Assembly (NCBI RefSeq): GCF_000147335.1
Contig: NC_014534.1
Span: forward strand, 280,773-344,772
DNA length: 64,000 bases
Source of the DNA: Gloeothece verrucosa PCC 7822
GTDB lineage: Bacteria; Cyanobacteriota; Cyanobacteriia; Cyanobacteriales; Microcystaceae
Reading direction: 5' to 3'
In this document: positions 10,643-62,301 of the stretch, in pieces
Layout: each line of letters begins with the position of its first letter
Numbering within the stretch: the first letter of the stretch is position 1
Notes under the pieces: generated by a model
Databases searched by the model: none
Told to the model about the DNA's origin: nothing
Seen by the model: only the letters and a program-made list of their open reading frames with translations
Made by a program: the position numbers and the translations under genes

Positions 10643-10646
10643 AATT

Positions 10647-11552: not shown

Positions 11553-11553
11553 A

Positions 11554-17013: not shown

Positions 17014-17548
17014 CTCGTATGAGCCGCTAGAGTGGTATGACTTAAAATTGCTTATCTTACCCAAATTTCTTTATTTGATTTTTTTAACCATAAACTTTAG
17101 TTCATCGGTTTTTGCATCTCCAGAAAATTTGGCTAAAGCTCAACCTCATCAACAAAAGCGTATATCACCTCGTTCTTGTGATTTAAACCAGATTGAAAAC
17201 TTTTTGAATCAACATCTTGAACAATCTCCTGATTTAATTTCCCCTCTTACAATTATTGCTAAAAATCTCAAAGTCGATAAAAAATTTATATCTCGGTATT
17301 TTCGAGATTTATGTCAAAAAATTGTAGCTAAACGCTTAAGTTATAAAAAAGATTGTTATTTAGATTCCTTAAAACAATGTTGTAATGAAGTTGAACAAGT
17401 TACAAAGATGCTGTTTAAACAGGGAGAATATCCGACGGAAGACTGAGTTGCTCAACTTATCACCAAGCCCAGTTATTTTCGGTACTCTCAAGTGCGTGAA
17501 GTTTTTAACACAACTCGACATGAGTTAGGATTAAAATTAAATAACTAA
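17003..17548 (+). pseudogene. tnsD: TnsD relic with internal deletion and premature stop
   Basis: The frame starts with E-P-L-E-W-Y-D-L-K-L-L-I-L-P-K, like the N-terminus of cyanobacterial TnsD/TniQ proteins. At about residue 26 it jumps to a C-terminal helix-turn-helix region (I-A-K-N-L-K-V-D-K-K-F-I-S-R-Y-F-R-D-L-C). The TniQ core and zinc fingers, some 300-400 residues, are missing. An in-frame TGA at 17444-17446 follows G-E-Y-P-T-E-D; after it the frame continues V-A-Q-L-I-T-K-P-S-Y-F-R to a TAA at 17546-17548, so a CGA-to-TGA change is likely. TnsD normally guides insertion into a fixed chromosomal site; here that route is lost. Confidence 0.8.
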
Positions 17549-35531: not shown

Positions 35532-36893
35532 TCAACTATCTTTTATTAACCCGTTAACTTCCACTTTAACTCTAAAGTGTTCATTTATTTCTTCTGGAGA
35601 CAGTTTCAGCAACTCCTGATATTCGGAAAACTTCCTCAACCTAGAAATAGCTTTAATAATTTCTTGTCCTTCGACAGTCGTCGAAATTTTTTGCTGATTT
35701 TTCCCCTGCTTTAAAACGAATTGGAATTTCCCTGATGAATTAGAAACCCGATAAATATTACCTAACAACAAAGTAGAAGGAGCGCATCCTGTAGCTTCTT
35801 CTAACCCTTCCAATAATACCTCACTTTGGTCACTGGCTAATTTTAAGAGAATTAGTTTTTGGGGGTCAGCTTCAGAGATATTCTCTACAACTTGCCCATT
35901 TAATGGCTGAGTTTTAGTCCCTTGTTCAACCGTTAAATCTCTTTCTTCTTCTGATGCTCCCGATTCTAAATTTAGTTGTGTTTTGGGTTCAGTTGTTTCT
36001 ACATTTTCTTTAGCTAAGGAGGCAGTCGTAGAAATTTTGGCATCTAAATTCAATTCTTTTCCTTCGGTGGCATCAGAAGATTTTAACTCTATCTGTGTTA
36101 AAGTTTCAGTTGGTTCTAGATTCTCTTGTGTTTCTTTGGCGGCTAAAGAATTAGCGGCAAGGTCTTCATATCTTGGCTGGCTTACTTGTCCGGAGTTTTC
36201 CCTAAATTCCACCATCTGAAATTTTTCTAGAACCTGTACCGAGCCGCCGCTTAATTTTAGTCCGAGGACTGAATCAATCTTATTTTTATGGCCTTCGATT
36301 TGATACTCGAAATAATTTAATTGTGCGGCTATTTTTTCCTTAATCTTTTCACTTTTGTCTCGTATTAATTCCTCTTGGCCGCAGATGTAAGCCTTGTAAT
36401 CAATAGGAGAGACATTTCTAGGACAATACCAATGAGTAGCAATAGCCGCATAAACAGATCGCCAAAATGAATGAGAAAACTGACGAATTGGCGGCATCGG
36501 GACGAATTTTTGTAAGTGTTCTTGCCAGATTTTGAAGACAGACGGTATATAAGTGGAGTTAATCGTCTTGCTGTCGAGGTGGCCTATTTCAAGGGAGTCT
36601 CTTAAAAAGGAAATAGCCTTAATAACTTTCTGTGCTTTAATTAATGTGGGAATTTCGCGGATTTCTTCGGTAAAATTCTTTTTCTCGGTAAAAGTTACTG
36701 AATAAGCGGTTTTCTCTTTGATGTTACTGTTGAGCAGCAGAGCATCACAAGCCAATCCCGTTATCAAAACCAATGCCCCCAAAACTTCGAGGCAGTTCTT
36801 TGAATCGAGAAAATCTTCCCCGGTTTTCACGAAAATTTCTGGGTTAGAGATCAATTTGATGCGGGTTTGAGTAGGCGGCTTGGTTTTACCCAT
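35532..36893 (-). CDS. Degenerate telomere-resolvase-like protein
   Basis: 453 residues, ATG at 36891-36893. Residues about 34-165 resemble the catalytic domain of the recombinase at 57915-60407: L-G-A-L-V-L-I-T-G-L-A (where that protein has T-G-R-R), I-P-T-L-I-K-A, and F-W-R-S-V-Y-A-A-I-A-T-H-W-Y-C-P (against L-R-S-L-W-G-V-I-A-A-Y-F-F-C-P). The first catalytic arginine and the terminal L-G-H...Y are missing, so it should be inactive. A low-complexity linker (residues 235-335) leads to a second copy of the TG-x-x-P module (A-T-G-C-A-P-S-T-L-L-L). It may bind DNA as a regulator or antagonist of the active enzyme. Confidence 0.55.
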   Translation of the reverse strand: MGKTKPPTQTRIKLISNPEIFVKTGEDFLDSKNCLEVLGALVLITGLACDALLLNSNIKEKTAYSVTFTEKKNFTEEIREIPTLIKAQKVIKAISFLRDSLEIGHLDSKTINSTYIPSVFKIWQEHLQKFVPMPPIRQFSHSFWRSVYAAIATHWYCPRNVSPIDYKAYICGQEELIRDKSEKIKEKIAAQLNYFEYQIEGHKNKIDSVLGLKLSGGSVQVLEKFQMVEFRENSGQVSQPRYEDLAANSLAAKETQENLEPTETLTQIELKSSDATEGKELNLDAKISTTASLAKENVETTEPKTQLNLESGASEEERDLTVEQGTKTQPLNGQVVENISEADPQKLILLKLASDQSEVLLEGLEEATGCAPSTLLLGNIYRVSNSSGKFQFVLKQGKNQQKISTTVEGQEIIKAISRLRKFSEYQELLKLSPEEINEHFRVKVEVNGLIKDS

Positions 36894-37492: not shown

Positions 37493-38299
37493 ATGTCTCA
37501 ATCCCAAGAAATTGAAGTGGGTTTTACAGCGAAAGTAATGGCTGCTGCTCGTGCCATCGAAAGCCGCAGACCTAATGCTTTGTTTATTGATCCGTTTGCT
37601 GAACTTTTAGCTGGCGCGGAAGCTATATCTTCGGCAATTCCTCGCTTAGAAGAGTATGAAAAACAAGGAAGACCCTTTATTGCCGTGAGGACTCGCTTTT
37701 TTGATGATTTTCTTCTCAATCACTCTTCGTGTTGCCGGCAAGTCATTATTGTTGGTTCAGGAATGGATACAAGAGCTTTTCGCCTCAATTGGAAATCCGA
37801 TACTCATGTTTATGAAATCGATCAAGCTTCGGTTTTGCAATATAAGCAATCGTGCTTATCGGGGATGGCTCCCCAGTGTCATCAACATTTAATTTATGCC
37901 GATTTAAGGGAAACTCTTTGGCAGAAATTGCTCCTGTGTCAAGGCTATCAACCTTCGCAACCGTCCCTTTGGCTGTTGGAAGGATTGCTTTATTATTTAA
38001 ATCAAGATGAAGTTGAGAATTTATTGGTAACAATTAACCATTTATCGGTAGTCGGAAGTGGGTTGGCTGCTGATCTAATGAACCCAGTTATTGCCAATGG
38101 TTCGGATCAATGGGCTAAATACTGGCGTTCTAGCTGTGAAGACCCGGAATCGCTTTTTGCTCATTATGGTTGGAAGGCATCAGTAACTCAACCCGGAGAA
38201 CCTGGGGCGAGTTTTGGCAGATTTACCTATCAATTTCCTGACCGTAGCCGGGCAGATGCTCCACATATCTTTTTGGTTACAGCGACTAAAGAACTTTAA
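37493..38299 (+). CDS. SAM-dependent carboxyl methyltransferase (Ppm/Tcmp family)
   Basis: 268 residues, ATG at 37493. The leucine-carboxyl-methyltransferase-like family is indicated by F-T-A-K-V-M-A-A-A-R-A-I-E-S, D-P-F-A-E-L-L, the R-T-R-F-F-D-D-F segment, the SAM loop V-I-I-V-G-S-G-M-D-T-R-A-F-R, and D-Q-A-S-V-L-Q-Y-K, with E-G-L-L-Y-Y-L. Such enzymes often methylate carboxyl groups in secondary metabolism. It is followed by two asparagine-synthetase-like genes and may belong with them. A remnant of the dispersed gene lies upstream. Confidence 0.85.
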   Translation: MSQSQEIEVGFTAKVMAAARAIESRRPNALFIDPFAELLAGAEAISSAIPRLEEYEKQGRPFIAVRTRFFDDFLLNHSSCCRQVIIVGSGMDTRAFRLNWKSDTHVYEIDQASVLQYKQSCLSGMAPQCHQHLIYADLRETLWQKLLLCQGYQPSQPSLWLLEGLLYYLNQDEVENLLVTINHLSVVGSGLAADLMNPVIANGSDQWAKYWRSSCEDPESLFAHYGWKASVTQPGEPGASFGRFTYQFPDRSRADAPHIFLVTATKEL

Positions 38300-38461
38300 G
38301 CATGAGCGACTCGTCGCAGGGACAGAACATAATTACAGTCTACCATCGATTCTCGCGCAAAGCTGTTTACTTGATATCGCCTATGATGAAGAACAAGAAA
38401 GTAAATAATTAAATATTTAATTCGCGATAATTATTCGGGAATTAATTTTTACTTTTGCCCA

Positions 38462-38475
38462 AATGGGATGCTCCC
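38462..38475. repeat. Solo MITE terminus
   Basis: AATGGGATGCTCCC, identical to one inverted terminus of the MITEs at 34217 and 62629, without a partner nearby. Confidence 0.6.
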
Positions 38476-38556
38476 GTTCACTATGTTAATTTTCCCCCCT
38501 CCCAAAATTTTTAGCTTCTCCCTTTTGTTATCCGGAATTCAGGTTAAAATAAGTTT

Positions 38557-40257
38557 ATGAGAAAGCGCAAGAGTGTTAATTTGTTGTCGGTACATCCCAG
38601 TTGGTGTTTAATTTGGGGACAGATAAATACTCAATTAAATGAGTATAGTTTTTCTGTCCCTGGCAAGTTGGGTCTGGTGGGTTCTCAACCTGTTTTTAGT
38701 CCTCAAAAAGGTTTTTTGGTAGTAGGAGATGTTTGGTTAGTTAATCGAGATCGAGTTTTGAGAAGTTTGGGAGTTAGTTTAAGTGATTGGAAAGGTACAG
38801 ATGAGGAGGTTGTTGCTTTTGCTTGGGAACGCTGGGGAACTGAATGTGTTAAGCAATTTATGGGTTTTTTTGCTTTGATTGTTTGGGATGTTGCAGCTAA
38901 TCGTTTATGGTTAGTTCGTGATTCGGTGGGGGTAAGAACTCTTTATTATTGTTATTCGGGTTCAAGCTATTATATAGCACCTAGGCTGAAAAATCTTTCT
39001 TCTTTTCATTCCCAACAATTAGATTTAGTGGCGCTTAGAGATTATTTATCTACGGCTTTTGTTGCTGGTGAACGCACGTTATGGGAACAAGTTAAGGAAT
39101 TATTACCCGGAACGATTTTAAGTCTATCAGATGGAAAAATAAATAGATATTGGCAACCTATAGAGCAGATTTTAGAACCCGATCAATCTTTGGCATGGTA
39201 CAGTAATAAATTACGTGATTTACTAGAGCAAGTTATTCGAGAATATTTACCTCAAAATGAATCTGTAGGGGTTTATTTATCAGGGGGGTTAGATTCAAGT
39301 TGTGTTACGGCTTTAGCCGCTCGGTTACATTCGGCTTCAGTTCATACTTATTCTATTTTTTTTGGGGCAGATAGTCCCCATGAATTAGAATTTTCTAGTC
39401 AAGTTGCTCAATTTTGTCGGACTGAACATCATATTTTAGAAATTACGCCACAACAGATGTGGAATCAATTGCCTGAGACAATGGCTCATCTAGATGATCC
39501 GATTGGCGATCCTTTAACTGTTCCTAATTATTTAATGGCTCAGTTAGCTGGAGGAAATGTTCAAGTTATTCTTAATGGAGAAGGGGGTGATCCTTGTTTT
39601 GGGGGACCGAAAAATCAGCCTATGCTTCTTAATCAATTATACAATCAAACGGAAAATCAATCAAATTTAATGACGGCTTATTTGACTTCTTTTCAAAAAT
39701 GTTTTCTTGATTTGCCTAGATTATTGAAACCTGATGTTTTAGCTGTTGTTGAATCTTCCTCTTTTCCTTTTGAAGCTGATTTGAATTCGGAGACGACTTA
39801 TCTTAACCGCTTGATGTGCATTAATATTAAATTTAAGGGAGCAGATCATATTTTAACGAAGGTCAATAATTTAACTCGTTCTGCTCTTTTGGAGGGACGT
39901 TCGCCCTTATTTGACCGGCGTATTGTCGAATTAGCGATGCAAATTCCTCCGCAATATAAGTTAGCTGGTGCAGAGGAAAAAGCCGTTTTAAAACAAGCGG
40001 TTATTGATCTATTGCCCATAGAGATTATTAAACGTCCTAAAAGTGGCATGATGGTTCCGGTACAATTATGGTTTAAAAAATATTGGCAAAGGGAAGCAAG
40101 AAAGTTATTATTGAATAAAAATGCTAAAATTGCTCCTTACTTTAATCAAAAGGTTATACGAGACTGGTTAAACTATCAAGGAGATCCTTGGGGACGTTAT
40201 GGAGTTAAGCTTTGGTTATTACTGAGTTTGGAGATATGGCTAGAAGTTAATCAATGA
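38557..40257 (+). CDS. Asparagine-synthetase-like amide ligase (first copy)
   Basis: 566 residues, ATG at 38557. The N-terminal Ntn-like domain has the family strands (F-F-A-L-I-V-W-D, L-V-R-D-S-V-G-V-R-T-L-Y-Y) but starts M-R-K-R, lacking the catalytic Cys2 of glutamine-using enzymes. The synthetase domain has V-Y-L-S-G-G-L-D-S-S (PP-loop, near residue 240), the acidic D-D-P-I-G-D-P and a C-terminal R-P-K-S-G-M-M-V-P. Without glutaminase activity it may ligate an amine other than ammonia, as in lasso-peptide and beta-lactam synthetases. Convergent with the operon at 40323-45375. Confidence 0.8.
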   Translation: MRKRKSVNLLSVHPSWCLIWGQINTQLNEYSFSVPGKLGLVGSQPVFSPQKGFLVVGDVWLVNRDRVLRSLGVSLSDWKGTDEEVVAFAWERWGTECVKQFMGFFALIVWDVAANRLWLVRDSVGVRTLYYCYSGSSYYIAPRLKNLSSFHSQQLDLVALRDYLSTAFVAGERTLWEQVKELLPGTILSLSDGKINRYWQPIEQILEPDQSLAWYSNKLRDLLEQVIREYLPQNESVGVYLSGGLDSSCVTALAARLHSASVHTYSIFFGADSPHELEFSSQVAQFCRTEHHILEITPQQMWNQLPETMAHLDDPIGDPLTVPNYLMAQLAGGNVQVILNGEGGDPCFGGPKNQPMLLNQLYNQTENQSNLMTAYLTSFQKCFLDLPRLLKPDVLAVVESSSFPFEADLNSETTYLNRLMCINIKFKGADHILTKVNNLTRSALLEGRSPLFDRRIVELAMQIPPQYKLAGAEEKAVLKQAVIDLLPIEIIKRPKSGMMVPVQLWFKKYWQREARKLLLNKNAKIAPYFNQKVIRDWLNYQGDPWGRYGVKLWLLLSLEIWLEVNQ

Positions 40258-40322
40258 TTTTATGGGTTTTTCTTCTTTAAGAGTGAAAAATTGAATCAAC
40301 CCCAAGGTTCACGGATTAAATA

Positions 40323-41612
40323 TTACCCAAAACTCTGAACCATATATAGTGAATTGTCTTCGACAAAAATTAAATCATTTTCTTGACGACTTAGAATAAT
40401 TCCCTGAGTGACAATGCGTAATAAATGTTGTGGGGAAAAGGATTCTAATTCGACAAAATAGCCGGCTTCTAACCAATTAATTTCTTCTGGGAGTAAAGTT
40501 TGTCGGATTTCTTGGGGTAATTCTTTTGCTTCTCGTGCCATAGTATCTGATTGTTGTACGAATAATTTTGGGTTGTCTAATACTTGACGGGGTGATAACC
40601 CGATATCGTAAATAGTAGCAGAACTATCAGCAAACCAATTATCCTGAGTACGAAGATGATTAACTAAAGTTACCCCTCGAGAATTGGCATTATGGAGAGC
40701 ATATACTTTTAAATCCCGATTGCGCCGCAACATTTCTAGAACTACATCAAATATATTTTCAGGATATCTAGTTACACTCAAAACAGCACAGTTATTCTCA
40801 AAGTGAAAGTTATTCGCTATTAAAAACCGAGCGATTTCTGTACTTTGACAAACTATAACCCGATCAAAACTATAGTTAAGAATTTCAGGATTAATTTGAA
40901 CAGGTTGAGTAGCAGCAAAAGATGGGGATAGAATTTTTTCGAATGAACCGTTGATAGTTTGCCACTTTCTTAACCAATCTTGAACTTGACTTAGAGAAAT
41001 TAAAAATTCTTGAGCAATTGATTTTTTATTCCTTAATTGTCGAATTGCCAAATAAATAAACAACATTCCTATTATTGTGCTTGCGACCAAGAGCGGAAAT
41101 AAATTGAGACTCAAACTAATACTCAGTCCAACCACAAGAAGAAACCCTGTTAAAATTAATAAAGATTTTGCTGTATTCTGGCGATCTTGATAAGTTAGTT
41201 TTTTTGAACGACTTTGATTAAATAACCAAATTAAAACTCCTAAATTTAAAACTATTGGAACAATAATAATTGATCCTCCTCCAAGTAAAACATACAAAAA
41301 TCCTCCAAAAAATAATGTTGTCCAGACATTAAAAAACAACAATAACAATATACAACCTATTCCGGCTACGCTTATCTTTTTATATTTTAAGCGCTTATCT
41401 AAAAAGTATAGTAATTGTTTGGGAGTAAAGTAGAGGGTTTTATTAACCGAAATATCATTCAGCAGTTTAGCAAAAAATGGATCAGTAAATTTTATCCCTT
41501 GTGTCATGGCCGTAGGTTCAAAGGCAAACTGATGATTACACCGGGTGCAGTGCCCACTATTGGCGGTTCTGTCTCGAAGATTGTTATCTGTTCCACAGTT
41601 AATACATTTCAT
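40323..41612 (-). CDS. Zinc-ribbon membrane protein
   Basis: 429 residues, ATG at 41610-41612. An N-terminal zinc ribbon (C-I-N-C-G ... C-T-R-C-N) precedes four hydrophobic segments: residues about 79-95, 97-120, 150-168 and 170-188. The last 200 residues are a soluble alpha/beta domain (D-R-V-I-V-C-Q-S-T-E-I-A-R-F-L) that resembles a Toprim- or NYN-like fold only loosely. Last gene of the minus-strand operon. Function unknown; could be a transporter accessory or immunity factor if the cluster makes a product. Confidence 0.6.
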   Translation of the reverse strand: MKCINCGTDNNLRDRTANSGHCTRCNHQFAFEPTAMTQGIKFTDPFFAKLLNDISVNKTLYFTPKQLLYFLDKRLKYKKISVAGIGCILLLLFFNVWTTLFFGGFLYVLLGGGSIIIVPIVLNLGVLIWLFNQSRSKKLTYQDRQNTAKSLLILTGFLLVVGLSISLSLNLFPLLVASTIIGMLFIYLAIRQLRNKKSIAQEFLISLSQVQDWLRKWQTINGSFEKILSPSFAATQPVQINPEILNYSFDRVIVCQSTEIARFLIANNFHFENNCAVLSVTRYPENIFDVVLEMLRRNRDLKVYALHNANSRGVTLVNHLRTQDNWFADSSATIYDIGLSPRQVLDNPKLFVQQSDTMAREAKELPQEIRQTLLPEEINWLEAGYFVELESFSPQHLLRIVTQGIILSRQENDLIFVEDNSLYMVQSFG

Positions 41613-41626
41613 ATTTTCAAATGCTT

Positions 41627-42856
41627 TTAAGTCAAAACTTGATTATTTAACAAAATACTATAATCTTCCCGCCGCCGAATCAATTTATGTGTCTTTCCCT
41701 CCAATAAAACCTCCGCCGCACGAGGACGATGTAAAAAATGGGAAGACATGGCATATCCATAAGCACCTACATCTAAAATTCCGATCATATCCCCAATTTC
41801 TAGGGCAGGAAGTTGGCAATTTTTTCCTAAATAATCTCTCGAATAAGTCGTATTCCCACAAACATCCGTCAAATAAAGTTGTTCTGTATTTTCTTTCCAA
41901 GTGACAATTTCTCGATAGCCGCCATGAACCGAAGGCACTGATAAATTAGCAACGGTTGTATCTACTCCGATTATTTGTTTATTTTCTTGCCATTTAACTG
42001 AAACGACTTGAGCTAATAATGTCCCGCAAGCAGCAATTACTGCTCTACCGGGTTCTATAATTAACTCGATTTTTCGATTCAGTTTATTTAACGCTTCGGT
42101 TAAAGCTTCCCCAAATATTCCCCAATCAAACTGTATCCCTTGATGTTGATACCGATAGCCAAATCCTCCCCCAAAATCTAAATAATTCCAGTCGGGTAAT
42201 AATTGACAAGTTTTTATTAAAGTTTCGATCACTCCGGTAAATGCTTTAGTGGCATTTGTCCCTGTACCTCGATAAAAATGTAACCCCTGTATTTTTAATC
42301 CGGCTGATTGAGCAATATAAAGTGCTTGCGGAAACTCTTCAGGACGAATACCAATTCTACTCTCTCCGGTTAACTCGGGTAAGTTTAATCTAAAGCCTAA
42401 TTTTGGTGGCGTTAACTTGCCCTTTAACTCTTCATATATCTGACAGCATAATTGGAGTTGAGACACACTATCTAAATTTAAGATTTTGATATTCCAGTTA
42501 AATAATTGTTCGATTTCCTGACGATTCAAATTACTGCCACTATACACAATATTATCCGATTTAAATCCTGCTTTTAATCCTAAATAAATATCTCCGGGCG
42601 TGTTAGCATGAAGCCCCCATCCTAATTCTTTAAATATCTTTAAAAGAGCAATATTTCCATTCGTTACTGTTGCAAATTGAAATCTTGTGTTATGATAGGG
42701 TATTGATCGGGTAATATGGGATATTTCCTGCCTTAAAACCTCTCCTTGATAAAGGTAGAGAGGTGAATGGTAAATCTTTAACAACTCTTGTGCCACTTCT
42801 AAAGAAAAAGAAACAGTTTTGGTTTTATGTAGGGAAAAATCTTCATTAATAACCAT
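41627..42856 (-). CDS. LysA-like (fold III) protein lacking the PLP lysine
   Basis: 409 residues, ATG at 42854-42856, touching the upstream stop, with AGGAG before it. Fold-III decarboxylase features: D-F-G-G-G-F-G near residue 225, E-P-G-R-A-V-I near 265, V-C-G-N-T-T-Y (the cysteine of the second active site) and G-A-Y-G-Y-A-M-S-S-H-F. The N-terminal strand reads F-A-T-V-T-N (residues 61-66) where diaminopimelate and ornithine decarboxylases have A-V-K-x-N, so valine 64 stands in place of the PLP lysine. The enzyme may be inactive, or use another chemistry. It sits between an amide ligase and a membrane protein. Confidence 0.75.
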   Translation of the reverse strand: MVINEDFSLHKTKTVSFSLEVAQELLKIYHSPLYLYQGEVLRQEISHITRSIPYHNTRFQFATVTNGNIALLKIFKELGWGLHANTPGDIYLGLKAGFKSDNIVYSGSNLNRQEIEQLFNWNIKILNLDSVSQLQLCCQIYEELKGKLTPPKLGFRLNLPELTGESRIGIRPEEFPQALYIAQSAGLKIQGLHFYRGTGTNATKAFTGVIETLIKTCQLLPDWNYLDFGGGFGYRYQHQGIQFDWGIFGEALTEALNKLNRKIELIIEPGRAVIAACGTLLAQVVSVKWQENKQIIGVDTTVANLSVPSVHGGYREIVTWKENTEQLYLTDVCGNTTYSRDYLGKNCQLPALEIGDMIGILDVGAYGYAMSSHFLHRPRAAEVLLEGKTHKLIRRREDYSILLNNQVLT

Positions 42857-44587
42857 CTATTTATCTCCTGATAAGCTAGACAAAATTTTCCACCCCCGAT
42901 AAGGCAACCAGAAGGGATTATATAATGATTTTGCTGAAACTTGTTCTCGAAAAACCTCAGTCCGCCAAACTTCCCACATCAACAACAACCATAAAATTTC
43001 CCCAATTCTACGCCCGCGAATTTGACCACTTAATTGTCCTAAGATAATTTTTTTAGCTATATCAGGGTTAAAAATCCCTTCCGATTGCAGTTTATGAGGA
43101 TTTAGCCAATAACCTAGGGTTGACCATAATGAGGATAAACACCATTGAGTCAAAGGAACTCCCATACCTCGCTTTTTTCTCCAAACAATTTCTGAAGGTA
43201 GCCAAGATTCTACCGCTTTTTTCAAAATATATTTTTCACAAGCACCCTTTAAAAACAATTCCCCAGCAACTCCAAATGTCCATTCTGCTAGAGATAAGTT
43301 ACAAAAAGGCGATCTAATCCATAATCCGTGAGCAAAAGCTACATTCGTAGCACGAGGTTGGATATTTTGACTTCCTTTGAGCATTAAATTAGCACGACGT
43401 AATCTATCTAAAAAACAACTAGAAAAACTCTCACAGAGCGCTTCTTTTAGCCATTCGTCTAAATTATACAACTTAACTTGTTTATAAACCGATAACTGAA
43501 AGACTTGTTCTTCATATCCATATAAACGGTGAAATGTATTTAAATATTCCTGGGTAAAGCTATTTTCTCCCTGGTAAATACTGGCGGCAATTAAAGGTTT
43601 ATTTGTCCAGCCGGCAAATAATTGATCTCCATGTTCTCCATTAAATATAATAGCCGTTTCTTGACTAGCGGCTTGTCCTAATAAATATAAAGGCACAGTC
43701 ACCCCATCCCCAAAGGGTAAATCTAAGGCTTTAACAGTTGCTAAAAGTGCTTTTTTAACTTGTTTAGCTGTAGCCGGAACTTTAATTAAAGGAATTTTTA
43801 AAAACTGAGCAACTTCTTGTGCATAAATTAATTCCGAATTTTCCTCAATACCAAAATCAAGACTATAAGCACGAACCTTAAGACCTGCTTGCACTAACAA
43901 AGCGGCAATAATAGAAGAATCTAATCCGCCGGAAAGAAATATTCCTACTGGTTCATCTCCTAAATCTAATAATTGTTCTTCAACAGTCTTTTTTAAAAGT
44001 ATTTGTAGTTGCCTAATAGCGGTTTCTTCATCCCCGATTACTTTAGGTAAAGAATGCCATTGAAATAAACGTTTCTCTGCTAATTGTTCCAAAGAAGAAT
44101 TTAACTGCCAAGTTTGCTCCGTTCCTGGTGAAATGGCTTTAATATCTTCAACCGGGGTTATAGGAGTAGGAATATAAGAAAAACTGGTATATCCAGATAA
44201 AGATAAAAAATTAATTTTAGGATTTTTAATTAAAGGTAATAATAATTGAAATTGAGAGGCAAACCAAATTGTTTGATTGAATTGAGTCCAATACAAAGGA
44301 ACACGACCAAAGGTTTCGCGTCCTAAACTTAGACAATTTTTTTCCACTGTAACCCAGGCATCTGATTGATTCGGTATGCCACCAGCAGATAAGGAAGCAA
44401 TTAATCCTTGATTGATGTTAGTGCTTGAAGGTATTTGTTTAACCCCTAAATAAAGTATTCCCCACGTCTCTTGTTTTTGAAATTTATAGGATGTTGTGCT
44501 GATATTTTTAATGATGTTGTTAAATTTTTCTTGTTCTGTTTGAGAAATAAGCCCCCAATAGCCGATAAAGTGATAGGGTTTGTTCAT
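42857..44587 (-). CDS. Asparagine-synthetase-like amide ligase (second copy)
   Basis: 576 residues from the ATG at 44585-44587 (a start at 44710 would add 41 residues without family likeness). N-terminal Ntn-like domain, M-N-K-P-Y-H, without catalytic Cys2. Synthetase domain: I-F-L-S-G-G-L-D-S-S near residue 232, D-L-P-F-G-D-G, and N-G-E-H-G-D-Q-L-F-A-G-W. C-terminal R-K-K-R-G-M-G-V-P matches the family loop. Distinct from the copy at 38557, with low identity. Followed at once by the LysA-like gene. Confidence 0.8.
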   Translation of the reverse strand: MNKPYHFIGYWGLISQTEQEKFNNIIKNISTTSYKFQKQETWGILYLGVKQIPSSTNINQGLIASLSAGGIPNQSDAWVTVEKNCLSLGRETFGRVPLYWTQFNQTIWFASQFQLLLPLIKNPKINFLSLSGYTSFSYIPTPITPVEDIKAISPGTEQTWQLNSSLEQLAEKRLFQWHSLPKVIGDEETAIRQLQILLKKTVEEQLLDLGDEPVGIFLSGGLDSSIIAALLVQAGLKVRAYSLDFGIEENSELIYAQEVAQFLKIPLIKVPATAKQVKKALLATVKALDLPFGDGVTVPLYLLGQAASQETAIIFNGEHGDQLFAGWTNKPLIAASIYQGENSFTQEYLNTFHRLYGYEEQVFQLSVYKQVKLYNLDEWLKEALCESFSSCFLDRLRRANLMLKGSQNIQPRATNVAFAHGLWIRSPFCNLSLAEWTFGVAGELFLKGACEKYILKKAVESWLPSEIVWRKKRGMGVPLTQWCLSSLWSTLGYWLNPHKLQSEGIFNPDIAKKIILGQLSGQIRGRRIGEILWLLLMWEVWRTEVFREQVSAKSLYNPFWLPYRGWKILSSLSGDK

Positions 44588-44751
44588 TGTCAATATACAA
44601 GTAGTTTTTCTAATTGTCCGCCGATAAACGCCGATGAAATATTTGTCACTAACTAGAGTGTTGAGATGAAATGCAATAGGAATAAGTTCGATTTGTGTCC
44701 ATAAGTCCATAAGTTAAAAGAGTTGTGAAAATCAATTAATGGGTTAAACTA

Positions 44752-54820: not shown

Positions 54821-57800
54821 ATGGTATTGACACAAGCGAACTGGGCAGAAGTAACGCCCGATAGTCCCTGTCCGTTATGCGGCAAGCCCGACTGGTGTTC
54901 GGCATCGGACAACTCTGAAGCGGTAGTATGTCGCCGAACAGACCCGATTGTTGCTCCCCGTTCATGGAAACACATCAAGGAATCATCAGATGGTTATCCG
55001 ATTTACGCTTTACGGGGAAGTCAAGGGGAAATAAAGTCAAAGGGGCGGCTTAAAAAAATCTCTAAACCCATTGCTTGCCCCATCCCAGAGGGAGAAATTG
55101 AATTAGCTACGTTACCTAACGAGTTAACACACCCAGAAAAGGAAAAGGTTACAAAGTCATGGGGCTATGACATTGTAATCAAGTACCCCTATTCTCCAAC
55201 CCAGTATGTAAAACGCACTGAACATTATGATGAGAGTGGCAATCGTATCAAAATCAAGAAGAAGACTAAGATAACTCTGCCGTATCATCAGAATGCAGAG
55301 GGTCAGTGGATTAATGCCAAAGGACAGCAGGGATGGCCGGCTTATAGAATAGAGGAAGCGATCACTTATAGCACTAACAAATGGGTTTTGGGGGTAGAGG
55401 GCGAGACTTGCGTAGAAGCTGCCCGAAGTCTGATGCTAGTCTCCAACACAATGCAGGGCGGCTGTTGGGGCGAAGTGGATCTAGGCACATGGCTAACCCA
55501 ATTAAAAAACAATGGAGTCACCGGCTTAGTTTACTGGCCTGACAATGACGACGACGGACAGCGCAAGGCGCAAAAACTTTTAGCCGCATCGGGTAAAGTA
55601 AAATTTCCCGTACTCATCTTAAAACCCCTTGAAATATGGGCGGATATCCCCGAAACTGGAGACATAGCCGATTGGGTAAAGTGGGGGTTAACTCAGGGAA
55701 TGACAGGAGACGAATTTATCAAGCGATTAGAACTAGCCATACATGAAGCTGTTTTATCGCGGCATGAGTCACCGCCAGTAGAAGAAAATACCCCTACTCA
55801 ACAAACAGCACTGCCCAAACAAAACCGAATTGCCTCCGTAATAGCCGAACGCTACCTCAATAAGTTTCGATATAACAACGAAGCAAATACGTGGATGGAG
55901 TACCAAGACGAAGCAATTAAGGGCGGAGCATGGATAGCTGTCAGTAATTTACATATTCAGACGCAAATTTATCATATTCTACAGGCACGTAACTATGAGT
56001 TTAACTCTTCTTACCTCAATAGTATTGAGGAATTACTTAGGAAAGCACTCTACATCAAGGAATGGCCAAAAACGCCCAATCTACTACCATTCTCTGACTG
56101 TGTTTTAGACCTTTATACAGGAAAAACGATTGAGCATAGCCCGAATAATTATTTAACCTGGGTTCTACCTCGTCCCTACAACGTACCCCTCCAATCATGG
56201 ACCGAGATCGACAACTGGTTAACCGAAGCTACCAGGAGCAACGCCGCTCATAAACAGATATTACTCTGTTACGCGGCGGCAGTGTTAAGGAGACGTGCAG
56301 ATCTCCAGAAGTTTTTACATCTAATTGGCACCGGTGGAAGTGGCAAAAGCACTTTCATGAACTTGTTAGTGGCACTCGTTGGGCAACAAAATACTATTTC
56401 ACTCGATTTCACCAGCCTAAATGAGAAAGATGCCGTAGCCGAAGCATTTGGGAAAGTTTTAGCCATTTTTCCTGACCAAGATAGTGCTGGCAAGAATATC
56501 TCCAACTTTAAGAAAATAACTGGGCAAGACTTATTAAGGGGGAGGCGGCTATATAAAGACGGCTTCAACTTCCGTTTTGAAGGGATGTGCGCTGTGTCGA
56601 GCAATAATCCCATATTTCATAGCGGCAGTGGGCGCTGGTTAACGAGACGAGTTTTAATGGTTCCTTTTGAGTTAGCCGTCCCTGATGGAAAAGTTCGTAA
56701 CTTAGAGAAGGAATTTGAACCAGAATTATCCGCTTTTACTCATTATCTGCTTTCTATCCCTGAAACCCAAATCGAAGCGACCTTAAAGGGCTTAAACAAA
56801 AAACAGGTCATTTCCAAGACCTTGTGGGAATCACAGATTAGATCTGATGGGCTGGCGAGTTGGCTCAATGATGAAATCGTCTTCGAAGTTACAGCCAGAA
56901 CCCAAATCGGTAGCAATGCCAGGGAATGGGATAATTTGGATTACGACCCAACCACCTCAACCTTATTTGGCTCATACTGTCATCATATCAAGCGCAGTGG
57001 TCGTCAGCCGCTAACCAAGGACAATTTTAGTGCTAATCTCATCGAATTGCTCAAAGGGACTCTCAAAAGGGACGTAGAGAAGGTTAAAACCAACCAGGGG
57101 CGCTTTATCACCGGAGTGCGGCTAAGAACTCTTCATGATTTTGAAATTCCCTGTCTAGATGAATTGCTCGAAAACTTCGAAAGTGACGACGGGGGTGACG
57201 ACGGGTGTGACGACGGGGGTGACGACGGGGGTGACGACCTTAAACCCTTACCTGCATTCTTAAGTGACGGCAGTGACGACAAGGCTATTAATTTGGAGGC
57301 AAAGGAAAATTTATTAGTTGAGACACCCGAAGATGACCCCCCTTTAACCGTATTTGATGACCCCCCAAGTGCGGCAGAAGAAATTCCTTCTTCTACTCCT
57401 CCATCGGCAGATAAAAATAATGACGATCATTTAGAGGGGGAGGTCGTCACCGCCACCACAAACCAGTCAGAGCAAGTAGTTGAGGTGGCCACAGGAGCCG
57501 TCACCCAGGTCGTCACGCCCTTCGTCACTGAGGCCCCTAGTTTCGATGAAATTATGCGGCAAATCAAATTCCATCGAGAAAGATTAAGGTGGAGCAAGGA
57601 TTTCTTCGCGCAAATTCTGGTTAATAAATATCAAAAATCACTTCACCAGTGCTTCAGTTGTGATGTCATATTGCTCGAGTGTCTATCTTGGCTCTTGGGT
57701 ATTGAGTTTCAACCTGGAGATCGCGTTATCCATAATGAAGACTGGAAGGGTACTATCCAAAGTATTTGTCCTGATGGCAAACAAGCTTTTGTTTATTTAG

Positions 57801-57859
57801 ATCTAATGGAGAGTGTACATCCGATTGATATAAGTAGTTTAAGTCGGCTTGTTGAATGA
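54821..57859 (+). CDS. Plasmid replication protein: primase-type Toprim plus D5-like SF3 helicase
   Basis: 1012 residues, ATG at 54821 with GAGGAG upstream. An N-terminal zinc finger (C-P-L-C-G ... C-S ... V-C-R-R-T-D) is followed by a Toprim-like domain near residues 185-295 (L-G-V-E-G-E-T-C-V-E-A-A, Y-W-P-D-N-D-D-D-G). The D5-like helicase follows near residue 505: G-T-G-G-S-G-K-S-T-F-M-N, F-P-D-Q-D-S-A and a late N-N-P-I-F-H-S-G-S-G-R-W-L-T-R-R. Residues about 788-810 repeat D-D-G-G in tandem. A C-terminal SH3-like segment (G-D-R-V-I-H-N-E-D-W-K-G-T-I) may bind DNA. This is the likely replication initiator of the replicon. Confidence 0.85.
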   Translation: MVLTQANWAEVTPDSPCPLCGKPDWCSASDNSEAVVCRRTDPIVAPRSWKHIKESSDGYPIYALRGSQGEIKSKGRLKKISKPIACPIPEGEIELATLPNELTHPEKEKVTKSWGYDIVIKYPYSPTQYVKRTEHYDESGNRIKIKKKTKITLPYHQNAEGQWINAKGQQGWPAYRIEEAITYSTNKWVLGVEGETCVEAARSLMLVSNTMQGGCWGEVDLGTWLTQLKNNGVTGLVYWPDNDDDGQRKAQKLLAASGKVKFPVLILKPLEIWADIPETGDIADWVKWGLTQGMTGDEFIKRLELAIHEAVLSRHESPPVEENTPTQQTALPKQNRIASVIAERYLNKFRYNNEANTWMEYQDEAIKGGAWIAVSNLHIQTQIYHILQARNYEFNSSYLNSIEELLRKALYIKEWPKTPNLLPFSDCVLDLYTGKTIEHSPNNYLTWVLPRPYNVPLQSWTEIDNWLTEATRSNAAHKQILLCYAAAVLRRRADLQKFLHLIGTGGSGKSTFMNLLVALVGQQNTISLDFTSLNEKDAVAEAFGKVLAIFPDQDSAGKNISNFKKITGQDLLRGRRLYKDGFNFRFEGMCAVSSNNPIFHSGSGRWLTRRVLMVPFELAVPDGKVRNLEKEFEPELSAFTHYLLSIPETQIEATLKGLNKKQVISKTLWESQIRSDGLASWLNDEIVFEVTARTQIGSNAREWDNLDYDPTTSTLFGSYCHHIKRSGRQPLTKDNFSANLIELLKGTLKRDVEKVKTNQGRFITGVRLRTLHDFEIPCLDELLENFESDDGGDDGCDDGGDDGGDDLKPLPAFLSDGSDDKAINLEAKENLLVETPEDDPPLTVFDDPPSAAEEIPSSTPPSADKNNDDHLEGEVVTATTNQSEQVVEVATGAVTQVVTPFVTEAPSFDEIMRQIKFHRERLRWSKDFFAQILVNKYQKSLHQCFSCDVILLECLSWLLGIEFQPGDRVIHNEDWKGTIQSICPDGKQAFVYLDLMESVHPIDISSLSRLVE
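57184..57240. repeat. 15-bp tandem repeat in the primase gene
   Basis: About four copies of a GACGACGGGGGTGAC unit that encode D-D-G-G-D-D-G. In-frame and length-variable, a likely slippage site. Confidence 0.7.
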
Positions 57860-57914: not shown

Positions 57915-60407
57915 TCACTGCTCCCTAACAAAGGCTTGAAGAGGAGTAGTATCTTTGCCCCGATTATGACCCCTGGCATTACCAACCCCAATGGAGAGAT
58001 GATATTGCTCGATAAGTTCCCTATTTTGAGTGATCCATTCTTTAGCCACAGCGCGATGAATGCCGAAAGTTTGCTCTAATAAACCAGCATTAAGGGCAAA
58101 AGTAGATTGGGGATGTTGTTGATTCCACTGCTGTATTTTTTCAAAGATAGCATTCGCCCTCTGATAGGCCCGACTGCTTTGAGAAACTCCGGTGCGAAGG
58201 GGAGCGGGTGGGTAGTTTGATGATCCTGTCGGTTTTTTGTGAGTTGGTTGAGGGGGGATTTTTTCGCTTGGAGATTGGGATGGAGTAGATGGGGGTGCTT
58301 CATGACTAGGGGTTGGCACTATCACACACTGGAAGGATGCAGTTGGAGGTGATAAATTGTCATCTCTACTTGAAGTTGTCTGAGGAGGAGGAGTGGGTTG
58401 ATCCTCATCAAATAATAGCCGCTTAAACTGCTCAATTTTTTGATTGGCCGCCTTCAAGGAATGTTCTAGTGCGGCATGATCTTCTTTTAAGTGTTCGAGT
58501 TCACAGTTCGGTTGGTTGGCGGCGTGAAGTTGGGAGTTAAGTTCTCTATTTTCAAGTTCTAATTGACTAACTTGTTGTCGAAGATGAGTAACTTCAGTGG
58601 TCAACCAACTTAAAGTTTGGGCTTGGTAATTGACAGTCTCCATGACTGAGGATGTGGCTAAAAGGGGAGAACTCGACGGAATCTGCCCAGATTGGGAATC
58701 GAGTTGTGTTGTAACCCAGTCGAGTAGAGCATTGATAATATCAGTGTGGCTACCTTTGAATGAGAGTCGGTCGGCGATCGCCATTAACTGTGTCCTCATT
58801 TCTGGACTCAGTTGAATAAGAGTATCATCATCGTTTAAGGGTACCAAAGTTAAAGGTCCAGCCCCTTGATGATAAGCGTCCTTCATTTCTTCAATATTTT
58901 GATAAGGAAAATGTTTGGCGATAACTTGCTGCACATTAGGCAAACAGTGAGAATCAATAAATTCAGGAGTTTGGTAGAGTAAGAATTGAGCTTCTTGAAA
59001 TTTCTTTAACCGTTGAATGGCTTCTAGAACAAGAATCGCATCAACTAGAGTAACGAGGCGGTAATGAACATTGGTAATAGTTGATGAGAATAAGACCGCT
59101 CTGGGGTCGGATGCGTCCGGTTTAAAGACGGCGGACTTAAATAACTCAGCCGGGGTTCTCCCCGTCACGGCCATTAAACCTGTCAGTACCTCTAAATAGT
59201 TATCGCTATTCAATAGCCTTTCTCTCTCTTCGCTAATATTTGTATAAACCGAGTCGGTTATACAGTTATTCTCGTCGCGGCGAGACTGTGTAGAATGTCC
59301 CTCATCGGCAGGAGGTTTTGGTAATTCTCCTTGGGAAGGAATCAGTATGCCCCGGTCCTCTAAATAATCACCTGCCGCATCAACTAAGCGATACCGGAAA
59401 TAATGACCAGTAGCCGAACTCTCCATCACATGACCGAGGTAATGTTGAAGGAAGGGGTATTCATGAGAGGAGGGGGGACAGAAAAAATAGGCAGCGATCA
59501 CCCCCCAAAGAGAACGTAAATTATGAACACTAATATTTTCCTTTCCTTCTAAGGCAGGTACAATCTCTGCGAGGTGTTTGTTACACTCTCGATTAATTTG
59601 GACGTTAAATTTATTGATTTGTGTGGCTAACTCTTCCGGTTCCAATTGGTTGAGCGGCTTAATTTCTGATGAAGAGCGAAACTGATCAATGAATGGTAAT
59701 AACTCCGATGCCGGTATTAGAGTCACGATATCGTAAGCATCTCGCTCGGTTTTAGAATGACCAAGGAAGCGAAGTAAATAGGGATGGGTTGAGAGAGTAA
59801 ACTTGCCTCTAGCTACGACTTCTCCAATACGGCGGCCAGTTAATCCGGCGATAGCGATCGCCTGATGATGGAGGGCAAATTGATCCTGGCTTTGTAGCAG
59901 GTGATGGAGTTGCTCCAAATATTGGTTTGGGTTAACTCCTTTAAGAGTTAATTGGCGATGACGGTTAATTTGTTGACTACGGGAGTCGAGGGATTCATAA
60001 GTAGCCTCATCATATTTGAGGTAAGTAAGAGCGTAGTGTTCACTTCGTTCTTCTTCTATCCCCGTAACCCGTTGAGTATGAATGTAGTGATGGCTGTTGG
60101 TAGCAGTAATAGGAATTATCTTAGAAGCGATCGCATTCTCAATAGCTTTACGATATTTAGGCAGATAATCAAAAGCCACAGTAGACTGGGCATAACCTTC
60201 TTGTAGAAGGGCGATCTCAGCATCGCACAGCAATTTGATCACTGATGGTTCACAGAGAGTTTTCAGTCCCTCGATGAAATGTAGGATTAATTGTTCTAAT
60301 TCGCCTTTACTCAGTTTAGAACGCTTAGATGCGACAATGCGACTGCGGTAACGAGCGATAATCTCTTCTCTAGTTAGGTCATAGGAATCGAGAAAAGCCG
60401 ATGTCAT
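57915..60407 (-). CDS. Telomere-resolvase (protelomerase)-like tyrosine recombinase
   Basis: 830 residues from the ATG at 60405-60407; the frame to 60500 runs into a duplicated promoter segment and is rejected. Catalytic set of tyrosine recombinases: R192/R193 (T-G-R-R-I-G-E), K219 (H-S-K-T-E-R), H295 and R298 (V-H-N-L-R-S-L-W-G), H326 (Y-L-G-H) and Y336 or Y339 (G-H-Y-F-R-Y). The size, T-G-R-R context and cyanobacterial plasmid setting fit the telomere-resolvase family, which makes hairpin ends of linear replicons. Residues about 420-520 repeat the T-G-R-T-P-A-E-L module without the remaining catalytic residues, then a coiled coil and a proline-rich region. A dimer-resolving recombinase is the alternative. 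Confidence 0.68.
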   Translation of the reverse strand: MTSAFLDSYDLTREEIIARYRSRIVASKRSKLSKGELEQLILHFIEGLKTLCEPSVIKLLCDAEIALLQEGYAQSTVAFDYLPKYRKAIENAIASKIIPITATNSHHYIHTQRVTGIEEERSEHYALTYLKYDEATYESLDSRSQQINRHRQLTLKGVNPNQYLEQLHHLLQSQDQFALHHQAIAIAGLTGRRIGEVVARGKFTLSTHPYLLRFLGHSKTERDAYDIVTLIPASELLPFIDQFRSSSEIKPLNQLEPEELATQINKFNVQINRECNKHLAEIVPALEGKENISVHNLRSLWGVIAAYFFCPPSSHEYPFLQHYLGHVMESSATGHYFRYRLVDAAGDYLEDRGILIPSQGELPKPPADEGHSTQSRRDENNCITDSVYTNISEERERLLNSDNYLEVLTGLMAVTGRTPAELFKSAVFKPDASDPRAVLFSSTITNVHYRLVTLVDAILVLEAIQRLKKFQEAQFLLYQTPEFIDSHCLPNVQQVIAKHFPYQNIEEMKDAYHQGAGPLTLVPLNDDDTLIQLSPEMRTQLMAIADRLSFKGSHTDIINALLDWVTTQLDSQSGQIPSSSPLLATSSVMETVNYQAQTLSWLTTEVTHLRQQVSQLELENRELNSQLHAANQPNCELEHLKEDHAALEHSLKAANQKIEQFKRLLFDEDQPTPPPQTTSSRDDNLSPPTASFQCVIVPTPSHEAPPSTPSQSPSEKIPPQPTHKKPTGSSNYPPAPLRTGVSQSSRAYQRANAIFEKIQQWNQQHPQSTFALNAGLLEQTFGIHRAVAKEWITQNRELIEQYHLSIGVGNARGHNRGKDTTPLQAFVREQ

Positions 60408-60694: not shown

Positions 60695-61177
60695 TCACTG
60701 AGCTATTTGCTCTAATAAATCAGCAAAACTGAATAGCTCTTGCTGTATTTGTGTAAAAATAGGGCGTGAGCGCTCGATTAAAGGCTCAAGTCTTTTAGCA
60801 TCTAAATTAAAAGAATAAACATTTCTTACCACATGACGAAAACGCCTATATTCATCAAGAGCTTCCCTTGTTGAAATTGAAATTACTTTTGGACGAGTTT
60901 GGGCTATATCTAAACTCATTTGAATTAATAAATCTCGATGCCATTCTTGTCCTGCCGGCATATGGCCATCTACTCCCGTTGCAATTTTAGAAAAAATAAG
61001 CTCTAGTCCTGTATATAAATCGTGTAAACTTAAGGCTACTGAATCTAAAAATAAATCCCGATTTTCTGAAGTATTTTGATAAGCCTTCATCCCTCTTTCA
61101 CATCGGATAATAAGCTGTTCTAACTGGTTTAACTCAAAACGAATACGATTTGCCAAAACTCTATAACTTTCAATCAC
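60695..61177 (-). CDS. HEPN (HepT-like) toxin
   Basis: 160 residues from a GTG at 61177 that overlaps the upstream TGA (GTGA) and has AAGGAA before it; the frame to 61225 overlaps too far. All-helical HEPN protein with the motif F-R-H-V-V-R-N-V-Y (R-x4-6-H/N-x-Y type) near residue 118 that marks HEPN ribonucleases. In HepT/MntA systems the MNT partner adds AMP to the toxin and inactivates it. Paired with the MNT gene at 61174. Confidence 0.75.
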   Translation of the reverse strand: MIESYRVLANRIRFELNQLEQLIIRCERGMKAYQNTSENRDLFLDSVALSLHDLYTGLELIFSKIATGVDGHMPAGQEWHRDLLIQMSLDIAQTRPKVISISTREALDEYRRFRHVVRNVYSFNLDAKRLEPLIERSRPIFTQIQQELFSFADLLEQIAQ

Positions 61178-61590
61178 ATCACTTTTCCTTTGAGCAAAAT
61201 GTTTTCTAATAATTCTGATTGGCAAGTCTCAACATCTACTAAATTGATTTCAATAGTTTCATCCAATTCTCTTACTTCTCCTATGGCTTGAAACGTATCT
61301 TCAGGGGAGATACCCCATGCAGCAATATCGATATCAGACCATAAATTAAAACGATCTTGCTCTAGCAGCGAGCCAAATACCATAACTTTAGTGGCTCTAA
61401 ATTTTTCTTTTAACAAAGAGGTTGCTACTTCAACTAATTGCCATGCTTTTTCTCGTCTTTGTGCCCGTTGTATCTGACTTTTTTGTAAATTGGTTTTAGC
61501 GGTCTCTCGATAGGTTGCCAGTTGGGAGTGGGGAAAATTAGTAATTGGCTTTTGAGCGCTATTGCTTTGAAACTGTTGAAAATTATTCAT
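61174..61590 (-). CDS. Minimal nucleotidyltransferase (MNT) antitoxin
   Basis: 138 residues from the ATG at 61588-61590 (a TTG at 61635 is in frame). V-M-V-F-G-S-L-L, then W-S-D-I-D-I-A-A-W-G, is the G-S-x(n)-D-x-D pattern of MNT-type transferases; the third acidic residue is probably in I-N-L-V-D-V-E. An unusual N-terminal extension of 55 residues rich in glutamine precedes the domain. The stop overlaps the HEPN toxin start by four bases, as usual for these operons. Confidence 0.75.
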   Translation of the reverse strand: MNNFQQFQSNSAQKPITNFPHSQLATYRETAKTNLQKSQIQRAQRREKAWQLVEVATSLLKEKFRATKVMVFGSLLEQDRFNLWSDIDIAAWGISPEDTFQAIGEVRELDETIEINLVDVETCQSELLENILLKGKVM

Positions 61591-61658
61591 AAAATTATCT
61601 TTAGACTTTTGTCTGTCACATTTTTCATTATTCAAAAAAAGGTTGCAGTATAGAGCCG

Positions 61659-61717: not shown

Positions 61718-62301
61718 ACCAAAAAACCCAGAATTTGTTCTACGGGAGGAAGAGAGTAGTCAAAGAGGTCAATAGTGACAGTTTGTCCTTGAAGCTTTAA
61801 AAAACGCCACTGGGACCCGTTGCTGACACAGCCATAAATAGTAGGGATGGACTTATTTTTAATTTCATTAAAACGTAGGGCGGCAACCATTTCAGCAATA
61901 CATTGACCCAAACCCGATTTGAGGTCAGCCTTTTTCGCCTCAATAATAATGACGGCGGGTGCTTCAATATCAATTTGTTCGGGAGAACGACTGAGGAGAA
62001 AATCACAAACGCCATTAAGTCCAACACTTTCATCGACCGTGAAATCTTCACCCGAAAACAGGCTAATCTGACGGTTTAGCAAACGTCGAACTTCTAATAA
62101 AACTGGATAGACAATTCCTTCAGAACGAGCTTTTTCGCTGCCGGTTGCGATCGCAACCGGTAAGCTTTCGGCTAAAAAGTTTTTTAAAGTTTCAGAGGGA
62201 TTAATCGGGGCAATATCAGGTAAAAAACGTTCGCCCTCAATAGTGGATAAATTGAAAGTTTCTTTAACTTTACTCACAGTAGTAAATTGACTATAAGGCA
62301 T
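61699..62301 (-). CDS. PD-(D/E)XK-like nuclease-fold protein
   Basis: 200 residues, ATG at 62299-62301. G-V-C-D-F-L-L-S and then V-I-I-I-E-A-K-K-A-D near residue 122 form the D...E-x-K motif of the restriction-endonuclease fold; E-x-x-R-L-L-N supplies an upstream acidic helix. The last residues (F-L-V-W-M-A-Q-N) overlap the promoter of the MNT operon. Families of this kind in cyanobacteria have unassigned roles; a defence or repair nuclease is likely. It forms a small island with the toxin-antitoxin pair. Confidence 0.65.
   Translation of the reverse strand: MPYSQFTTVSKVKETFNLSTIEGERFLPDIAPINPSETLKNFLAESLPVAIATGSEKARSEGIVYPVLLEVRRLLNRQISLFSGEDFTVDESVGLNGVCDFLLSRSPEQIDIEAPAVIIIEAKKADLKSGLGQCIAEMVAALRFNEIKNKSIPTIYGCVSNGSQWRFLKLQGQTVTIDLFDYSLPPVEQILGFLVWMAQN

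Follow-up and report, generated by a model that had tools for sequence, protein, structure and literature searches.

Does the 474-kb plasmid of Gloeothece verrucosa PCC 7822 encode an enzyme that forms its own ends, and is this plasmid a linear replicon? The question is raised by an open reading frame (ORF), here called tel A, in a stretch of 64,000 nucleotides (hereafter the window) that corresponds to positions 280773-344772 of contig C6 (NC_014534.1, 473,846 bp), in a genome of 7.84 Mb represented by 7 contigs. The ORF lies at 57915-60407 of the window on the reverse strand, starts with an ATG at 60407 and encodes Tel A, a protein of 830 residues; an alternative TTG start at 60500 would give 861 residues. 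A first-pass annotation had described it as a telomere-resolvase-like recombinase suggesting a linear replicon. Tel A came out as a telomere resolvase (protelomerase) in all the tests of sequence and fold, and it probably makes closed-end linear monomers of its own plasmid.

Hairpin telomeres of cyanobacteria are already known as such (PMC3558466 and PMC5987646, in the parts of both texts that were available). The first of these sources names cyanobacteria, with no detail in the available part, among the bacteria with hairpin telomeres. Linear replicons have been reported in Cyanothece, the end mechanism being unstated in the accessible portions of PMC4320622 and PMC5987646, and no paper pairing a telomere resolvase with Cyanothece was found in the open literature. 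What is new here is the extra, dead catalytic domain of Tel A and a telomere core, TTGGAATTCCAA, for the sister clade of Tel A; this core was not found described as a telomere in the open literature, where the four papers that contain the string are, by their titles, on other subjects, and an earlier description in subscription papers is possible.

Active site, predicted fold and second module of Tel A

Tel A matched the Pfam family PF16684 (ResT-TelK_cat) in two stretches with E=1.6e-74 and 249.9 bits, a score that excludes a chance match since the cut-off is 27. The catalytic domain, delimited by Pfam, alignment and profile at residues 155-339 (59391-59945, reverse strand like all other parts of Tel A), contains T-G-R-R at residues 190-193 and L-G-H at 324-326, followed by Y336. 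The residues aligned to the active site of TelA were R193 (TelA R255), K219, R298, H326 and Y336 (TelA Y405), and the Arg-Lys-Arg-His-Tyr order, in alignment with TelA and TelK, was kept in relatives. All five catalytic residues of a tyrosine recombinase, announced by the first-pass annotation in the T-G-R-R and L-G-H...Y context, were therefore found. R193 was identified as the counterpart of TelA R255 because the structure of the TelA R255A variant deviates at the second Arg of TGRR. TelA has Tyr363 at a position where tyrosine recombinases commonly have His, according to the part of PMC3558466 available, and Tel A displays H295 at this position. In an alignment of 17 sequences (Tel A and 16 relatives), G191, R192, R193, E196, R298, L324-G325-H326 and Y336 were invariant and K219 nearly so.

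A profile of Tel A aligned to TelK and TelA across the catalytic domain, and another stretch of it aligned to TelA 154-240. Of the 12 matches retrieved by profile search (E up to 0.01), seven were protelomerases or ResT, while the remaining five covered profile positions 372-558 and included no Xer protein. As a query, Tel A matched 8 of 386 cyanobacterial genomes, and the PF16684 profile matched 15 of them, 14 above the cut-off. Among 14 named control genomes, only Synechococcus elongatus had a PF16684 match, which was above the cut-off. No relative was found by protein scans of viral contigs, nor by a first scan of genome contigs with Tel A as single-protein query. Comparison with a second copy on the same contig (tel B, described below) gave ratios of nonsynonymous to synonymous substitutions (dN/dS; counts, custom script) of 0.33 overall, 0.20 for residues 131-360, 0.27 for 361-560 and 0.46 for 561-830. 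Judged by the first of these partial values, the catalytic part was under purifying selection.

The structure of Tel A was modelled by AlphaFold2 with the 17 sequences (mean predicted local distance difference test score, pLDDT, 78.5; predicted template modelling score 0.44). When this model was compared with known structures by VIA-align, TelA came first with Z 22.3 (root-mean-square deviation, rmsd, 3.9 over 276 residues), followed by TelK (Z 19.1, rmsd 5.0, 292 residues) and ResT (Z 14.7, rmsd 3.4, 155 residues). The next structures were XerA (Z 9.7, rmsd 15.4) and Cre (Z about 8), and Foldseek ranked them in the same order. Model residues 33-351 superposed on TelA 126-417, and the comparison barely probed residues beyond about 357. 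The N-terminal core-binding region (residues ~8-150; 59958-60386) was assigned from this superposition together with the profile alignment on TelA. In its core-binding and catalytic fold, predicted Tel A is nearer TelA, TelK and ResT than Xer, Cre or Int (Z at most 9.7 for the latter), so that the structure-based search proposed with the first-pass annotation came out in favour of a telomere resolvase. A Xer-type dimer resolvase was rejected on the same grounds, the best Xer score being less than half that of TelA and the profile search being devoid of Xer matches.

The Agrobacterium protelomerase TelA (PDB 4dwp, 4e0p, 4f41) is the best fold match and shares with Tel A the catalytic domain, the R-K-R-H-Y order and the core-binding domain. 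Tel A differs from TelA (442 residues) in having H295 in place of Tyr363 and in its additional parts, namely the second, dead catalytic domain, the long helices and a further domain at the C-terminus. The helices were predicted from the secondary structure of the model at residues 586-666 (58410-58652), where they probably form a coiled coil, and the C-terminal helical domain (residues 743-829; 57921-58181) bears an HNRGKD..FV motif common to many relatives. TelK (PDB 2v6e) and ResT (PDB 8vs5) have the catalytic fold in common with Tel A and are distant in sequence. We know of no tandem dead catalytic domain in TelK or ResT.

The duplicated TGRTP module (the motif is at residue 415), pointed out as unusual in the first-pass annotation, proved to be a genuine partial PF16684 domain and no stray motif. 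Residues 380-565 alone matched profile positions 10-130 of 181 with E=3.3e-11, the domain copy itself being placed at residues 391-507 (58887-59237). Its own model (pLDDT 78.9) matched TelA with Z 14.4 (rmsd 3.0, 141 residues), then TelK (11.6), ResT (11.5) and XerA (6.3). The module keeps TGR in Tel A and reads TGRS in a Crocosphaera relative, TGL in Aphanothece and at two further loci (L133, L134), and TGV or TGT in tel C, another copy on C6, and in PCC 7424; no LGH...Y follows within the module. The Crocosphaera protein has the whole Tel A architecture, second module included. In the alignment, the PCC 7428, Gloeocapsopsis dulcis and Thermosynechococcaceae relatives showed no counterpart of the module. 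On sequence and model evidence, the module is a degenerate duplicate of the catalytic domain, truncated and catalytically dead, and the dN/dS given above for residues 361-560 indicates purifying selection on it. Its role is most likely non-catalytic, such as providing an additional contact with DNA, controlling the dimer or protecting the ends.

Telomere-like palindromes on related replicons

Five genomes with Tel relatives possess telomere-like palindromes with the common 12-bp core TTGGAATTCCAA. The Tel gene and the palindrome were on the same record or contig in PCC 7428, G. dulcis, a Crocosphaera metagenome-assembled genome (MAG) and Stenomitos, and on separate contigs in SIO4C5; such telomeres were not observed for the other relatives covered, including Aphanothece. 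The clearest layout was that of pGLO7428.02 (Gloeocapsa PCC 7428), a linear record whose terminal repeats are identical over 1,340 bp and each end in the 36-bp palindrome TACATTGTTATATTGGAATTCCAATATAACAATGTA. The record of G. dulcis CP119970 is annotated as circular and contains one perfect palindrome with arms of 1,738 bp, centred at about 211,060 (NZ_CP119970.1) on the same sequence as in PCC 7428; the arms diverge beyond 1,738 bp. A linear plasmid read round its hairpins would assemble as a single palindrome of this kind, which explains the circular record, and CP119970 is probably a linear plasmid joined via its 1,738-bp terminal repeats. The 22-bp telomere word (up to 3 mismatches) occurred twice in the PCC 7428 record, once in that of G. 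dulcis and in none of four further records. The Tel of pGLO7428.02 is 45% identical to Tel A over residues 9-369. Both this Tel and that of G. dulcis resemble Tel A at this level in the N-terminal and catalytic part, have the C-terminal domain in common with it and are likewise carried on large plasmids, theirs with telomere palindromes; they differ by the missing counterpart of the second module.

Palindrome scans of 16 loci revealed contig-end palindromes at two of them (L127, L137), from the Crocosphaera MAG and Stenomitos frigidus, both centred on TTGGAATTCCAA; in the latter, the two arms agree at 569 of 570 positions. At L133 a stem-loop lies 152 bp from the contig end, and at L141 a 36-bp palindrome lies well inside the contig; both lack the core. 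The core itself was searched in the 14 genomes behind these loci, leaving out L131 (same MAG as L129) and L141, and a 72-bp palindrome at a contig end of Leptolyngbya SIO4C5 was found in this way. It occurred at nine places in 7 of the 14 genomes; three of these had arms longer than 7 bp (14, 36 and 136) and were all at a contig end or within 0.6 kb of one, and the other six had arms of 6-7. For comparison, core-bearing viral contigs (at least 80) had arms of 7-11 among the matches listed. No telomere was found in the parts examined of two other genomes, namely both contigs of the two Tels of G296 and the 8-kb contig of G005.

More distant Tels were associated with another telomere word. The hairpins of the Nostoc N6 plasmids pNPM8, pNPM9 and pNPM10 were inferred from reads, and conserved AAATTAACRGAC is present at their ends (PMC5987646, in the part available). 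Each of the three was found to encode a PF16684-type relative of Tel A; neither 'protelomerase' nor 'telomer' appears for these proteins in the portion of that article at hand. They resemble Tel A in their family and in residing on cyanobacterial plasmids, and differ by an identity of 26-30% over part of the protein, by their telomere word and by a separate branch in the tree. The record of pNPM9 is marked circular despite its read-inferred hairpins. In addition, a 22.9-kb contig of another genome (G078) encodes a Tel and has AAATTAACRGAC in 106-bp palindromes at both ends. Outside cyanobacteria, the linear plasmids of Rhizobiaceae (PMC13293297, available in part) are comparable in having a protelomerase, hairpin ends and repeats of some 1.1-1.25 kb at their termini; they differ in being alphaproteobacterial, of about 80 kb, and with a topology shown by reads and gels.

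A small plasmid of PCC 7822 itself provided a further case. Contig C7 (13,777 bp) encodes its own Tel of 340 residues, detected by PF16684 profile search, which matches TelA structures at about 1e-7 and displays, in order, TGRR, GQVKTK, HNLR, MGH and SYLDY. The two ends of C7 form inverted repeats some 1.1 kb long, which are identical at 833 of 1003 aligned bases and consist partly of 22-bp tandem units. The word CGAGTATGCRGGGTGTA is exact at C7:5-21 (forward) and 13760-13776 (reverse), and 11 other places in the genome have it with 3 mismatches. The left end begins CTCGCGAG, as if it had been read 4 bases round a hairpin. From its sequence, C7 looks like a small linear hairpin plasmid.

A different arrangement was observed in genome G027, where a 4,681,111-bp chromosome contig with dnaA at its start contains a near-perfect palindrome of 6.17 kb (L063:5106-11276), centred at about 2,113,190. 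Each 3.08-kb arm carries one complete Tel gene, and ordinary chromosomal genes lie on both sides. GC skew was positive in 8 of 10 samples to the left of the palindrome and negative in 8 of 10 to the right; at finer resolution, the cumulative skew reached its peak at 2.06 Mb and formed a plateau up to 2.17 Mb. The contig could represent a linear chromosome with hairpin ends that the assembly joined together.

Shape and ends of the 474-kb contig

Contig C6 contains a whole set of tel sequences: tel A, tel B, tel C, tel fragments and a dead Tel ORF. The gene tel B (C6 352.9-355.0 kb, forward) is 89% identical to tel A and lacks residues 1-130, and tel C (C6 5.2-7.8 kb) is 38% identical to tel A over the best stretch. 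Genes for an rve transposase, an AAA ATPase and a serine resolvase lie directly upstream of truncated tel B (C6 349.4-352.6 kb), and their position at its missing start makes it probable that a transposon broke this gene. Convergent pairs of tel and replication genes recur: the two genes are adjacent in cassette A, 35 kb apart in B, 13 kb apart in C and 2 kb apart in Aphanothece hegewaldii. Inverted blocks of 71-92% identity link a left arm (300-341 kb) to a right arm (353-451 kb) around a centre at about 347 kb; they total 14.3 kb of the left arm and their order is mostly mirrored, the block at 326.8-328.4 kb, at least, being an exception. On either side of this centre lie tel A and tel B, whose 5' ends point towards it. 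Four close relatives have a telomere on the contig or record that carries their tel, and in all four this gene is transcribed away from the nearest telomere (at 13.3, 7.8, 1.55 and 3.9 kb); the centre of C6 therefore sits where the close group would have telomeres. The orientation is opposite in 4 of 4 members of the distant Nostoc-type group (pNPM8, pNPM9, pNPM10 and G078), so that this argument holds only within the close group. None of the palindromes in the centre of C6 stands out, imperfect ones being no better than in three other stretches. The overall shape suggests that two diverged linear plasmids were fused telomere to telomere; the same picture would result from an old inverted duplication.

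The mechanism proposed for Tel A is that established for TelA and ResT (PMC3558466, as far as available). Tel A would bind palindromic telomere junctions as a dimer, cut both strands via Y336 and rejoin each cut strand to its own complement, yielding two linear monomers with closed ends, and the convergent replication gene would start replication of the plasmid carrying tel A. Cleavage and hairpin formation by Tel A, its target and the 474-kb replicon as its substrate are what we infer from family, active site and fold and from the palindromes on replicons of relatives and on the 13.8-kb plasmid of the same genome, all of which bear out the first-pass description of the protein as telomere-resolvase-like.

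Several observations weigh against Tel A acting on the ends of this plasmid. The deposited ends of C6 are, by their sequence, assembly artefacts and no telomeres. Bases C6:1-46 are the complement (not the reverse complement) of an adaptor, presumably of T7-promoter type, and are a contaminant of the deposited record. When the first kilobase was tested for reversed chirality, the outcome was negative from base 50 onward. The last 217 bases have nine other places in the genome identical over 201-217 bases, so the right end appears as a break inside a multi-copy insertion sequence (IS) and looks like the beginning of a transposase. The two ends have no sequence in common and gave no mutual match. 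Palindrome scans and searches for the 12-bp core and for the end word of the 13.8-kb plasmid yielded nothing convincing on C6, nor did the word from PCC 7428 and G. dulcis, sought on C6 allowing up to 5 mismatches and across the whole genome allowing up to 3; the single occurrence of TTGGAATTCCAA on C6 is within an ORF and has no extended symmetry. Cumulative GC skew peaked at about 350 kb, matching the centre of the inverted duplication, with a trough at about 120 kb (permutation p 0.009-0.03 depending on block size), and was treated as weak as a sign of true ends because its positive control failed: the G. dulcis plasmid gave p 0.46 and no peak at its telomere palindrome, PCC 7428 gave p 0.07 with a peak at one end, and PCC 7424 gave p 0.07. 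Among relatives, Aphanothece hegewaldii has the closest Tel (70% over residues 8-363), and no palindrome was seen at the ends of its two Tel contigs; in the PCC 7424 record, annotated circular, neither the core nor a long palindrome was found. Finally, a tree was built for the region of residues 130-345 (24 rows; midpoint root used for drawing). Within it, the five Tels encoded by core-bearing genomes all belonged to one clade of ten (support 81/83). Tel A, tel B, Aphanothece and three Thermosynechococcaceae sequences formed its sister clade (100/99; both clades together 97/99), and for this reason the target of Tel A may differ.

A circular or telomere-less plasmid, produced by head-to-head fusion of two hairpin plasmids with loss of the telomeres and leaving tel A as a relic or with another role, would agree with the diverged inverted duplication and its inward-facing tel genes, with the unremarkable palindromes in the centre, with the loss of residues 1-130 from tel B beside the transposase set and with the further tel pieces and dead Tel ORF. 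It is nevertheless doubtful: tel A is intact and purifying selection acted on its catalytic part, circularity is not indicated either by a contig whose ends are not closed, and the plasmid (473 kb there) is called linear in PMC4320622, at least in the part available. That published label may itself rest on an unclosed assembly, since the ends are an adaptor and a broken IS. The first-pass proposal of a linear replicon agrees with the label, and no telomere was found in the contig, both ends of which are assembly artefacts; a linear 474-kb replicon remains plausible. A natural telomere fusion may also be envisaged, tentatively: two related hairpin plasmids, each with its own replication-tel cassette, would have fused through the telomeres nearest to tel, a third cassette lying elsewhere, and Tel A would belong to a cyanobacterial subfamily with a built-in dead recombinase domain as regulator, whose sister clade uses TTGGAATTCCAA.

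It is improbable that Tel A serves the telomeres of another replicon, e.g. the 880-kb plasmid. The corresponding contig has no Tel match and is called linear in the accessible text of PMC4320622; against this, it displays no shared end repeat and no palindrome in its first or last 20 kb, and the 13.8-kb plasmid has a Tel of its own. Least credible of all is an ordinary tyrosine recombinase, a Xer-like dimer resolvase or an integrase without hairpin function: the general fold shared with XerA and Cre would allow for it, but family, fold and the telomeres of relatives all indicate a telomere resolvase, and a telomere resolvase acting on its own plasmid remains the reading we favour.

Neighbouring genes and significance

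The replication gene beside which the first-pass annotation had placed the 830-residue protein was recovered as a primase-helicase gene (D5_N and DUF5906; 54821-57859, forward) by profile match, NCBIfam matches being weaker; it adjoins tel A tail-to-tail. On the other side, a HepT-like/nucleotidyltransferase pair at 60695-61635 adjoins tel A and is likely a toxin-antitoxin module. The dead Tel ORF, a second PF16684 match of 453 residues (35532-36893, reverse; E=2.5e-18), has TGLA replacing TGRR and no LGH, its active site being lost; it could be a relic or a regulator. The two perfect palindromes with arms of at least 10 bp on C6 were both discarded as telomeres and are likely due to chance or regulatory: one of 24 bp (C6 ~416,040) is far from tel genes, and one of 20 bp (window 62141-62160) contains the common cyanobacterial word GCGATCGC.

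Elsewhere in the window, the region 8422-17446 contains genes for TniQ (8422-9453), a weak rve-type transposase match (13487-15814) and a TniB-type ATPase (15808-17013) followed by a small ORF, a composition that identifies it at the sequence level as a Tn7/Tn5053-like element. Two asparagine-synthase-type proteins, a leucine carboxyl methyltransferase-type protein and a pyridoxal phosphate-dependent decarboxylase are clustered at 37493-44710 and perhaps constitute a small-molecule pathway.

Tel A is a candidate end-forming enzyme for the linear replicons of Cyanothece. A dead duplicate of the catalytic domain within a telomere resolvase would represent a novel architecture for testing the control of hairpin formation. 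The core TTGGAATTCCAA offers a testable telomere word for the sister clade of Tel A, and C7 a handy small substrate in the same strain. It is also worth bearing in mind that a cyanobacterial plasmid record marked 'circular' can be linear.

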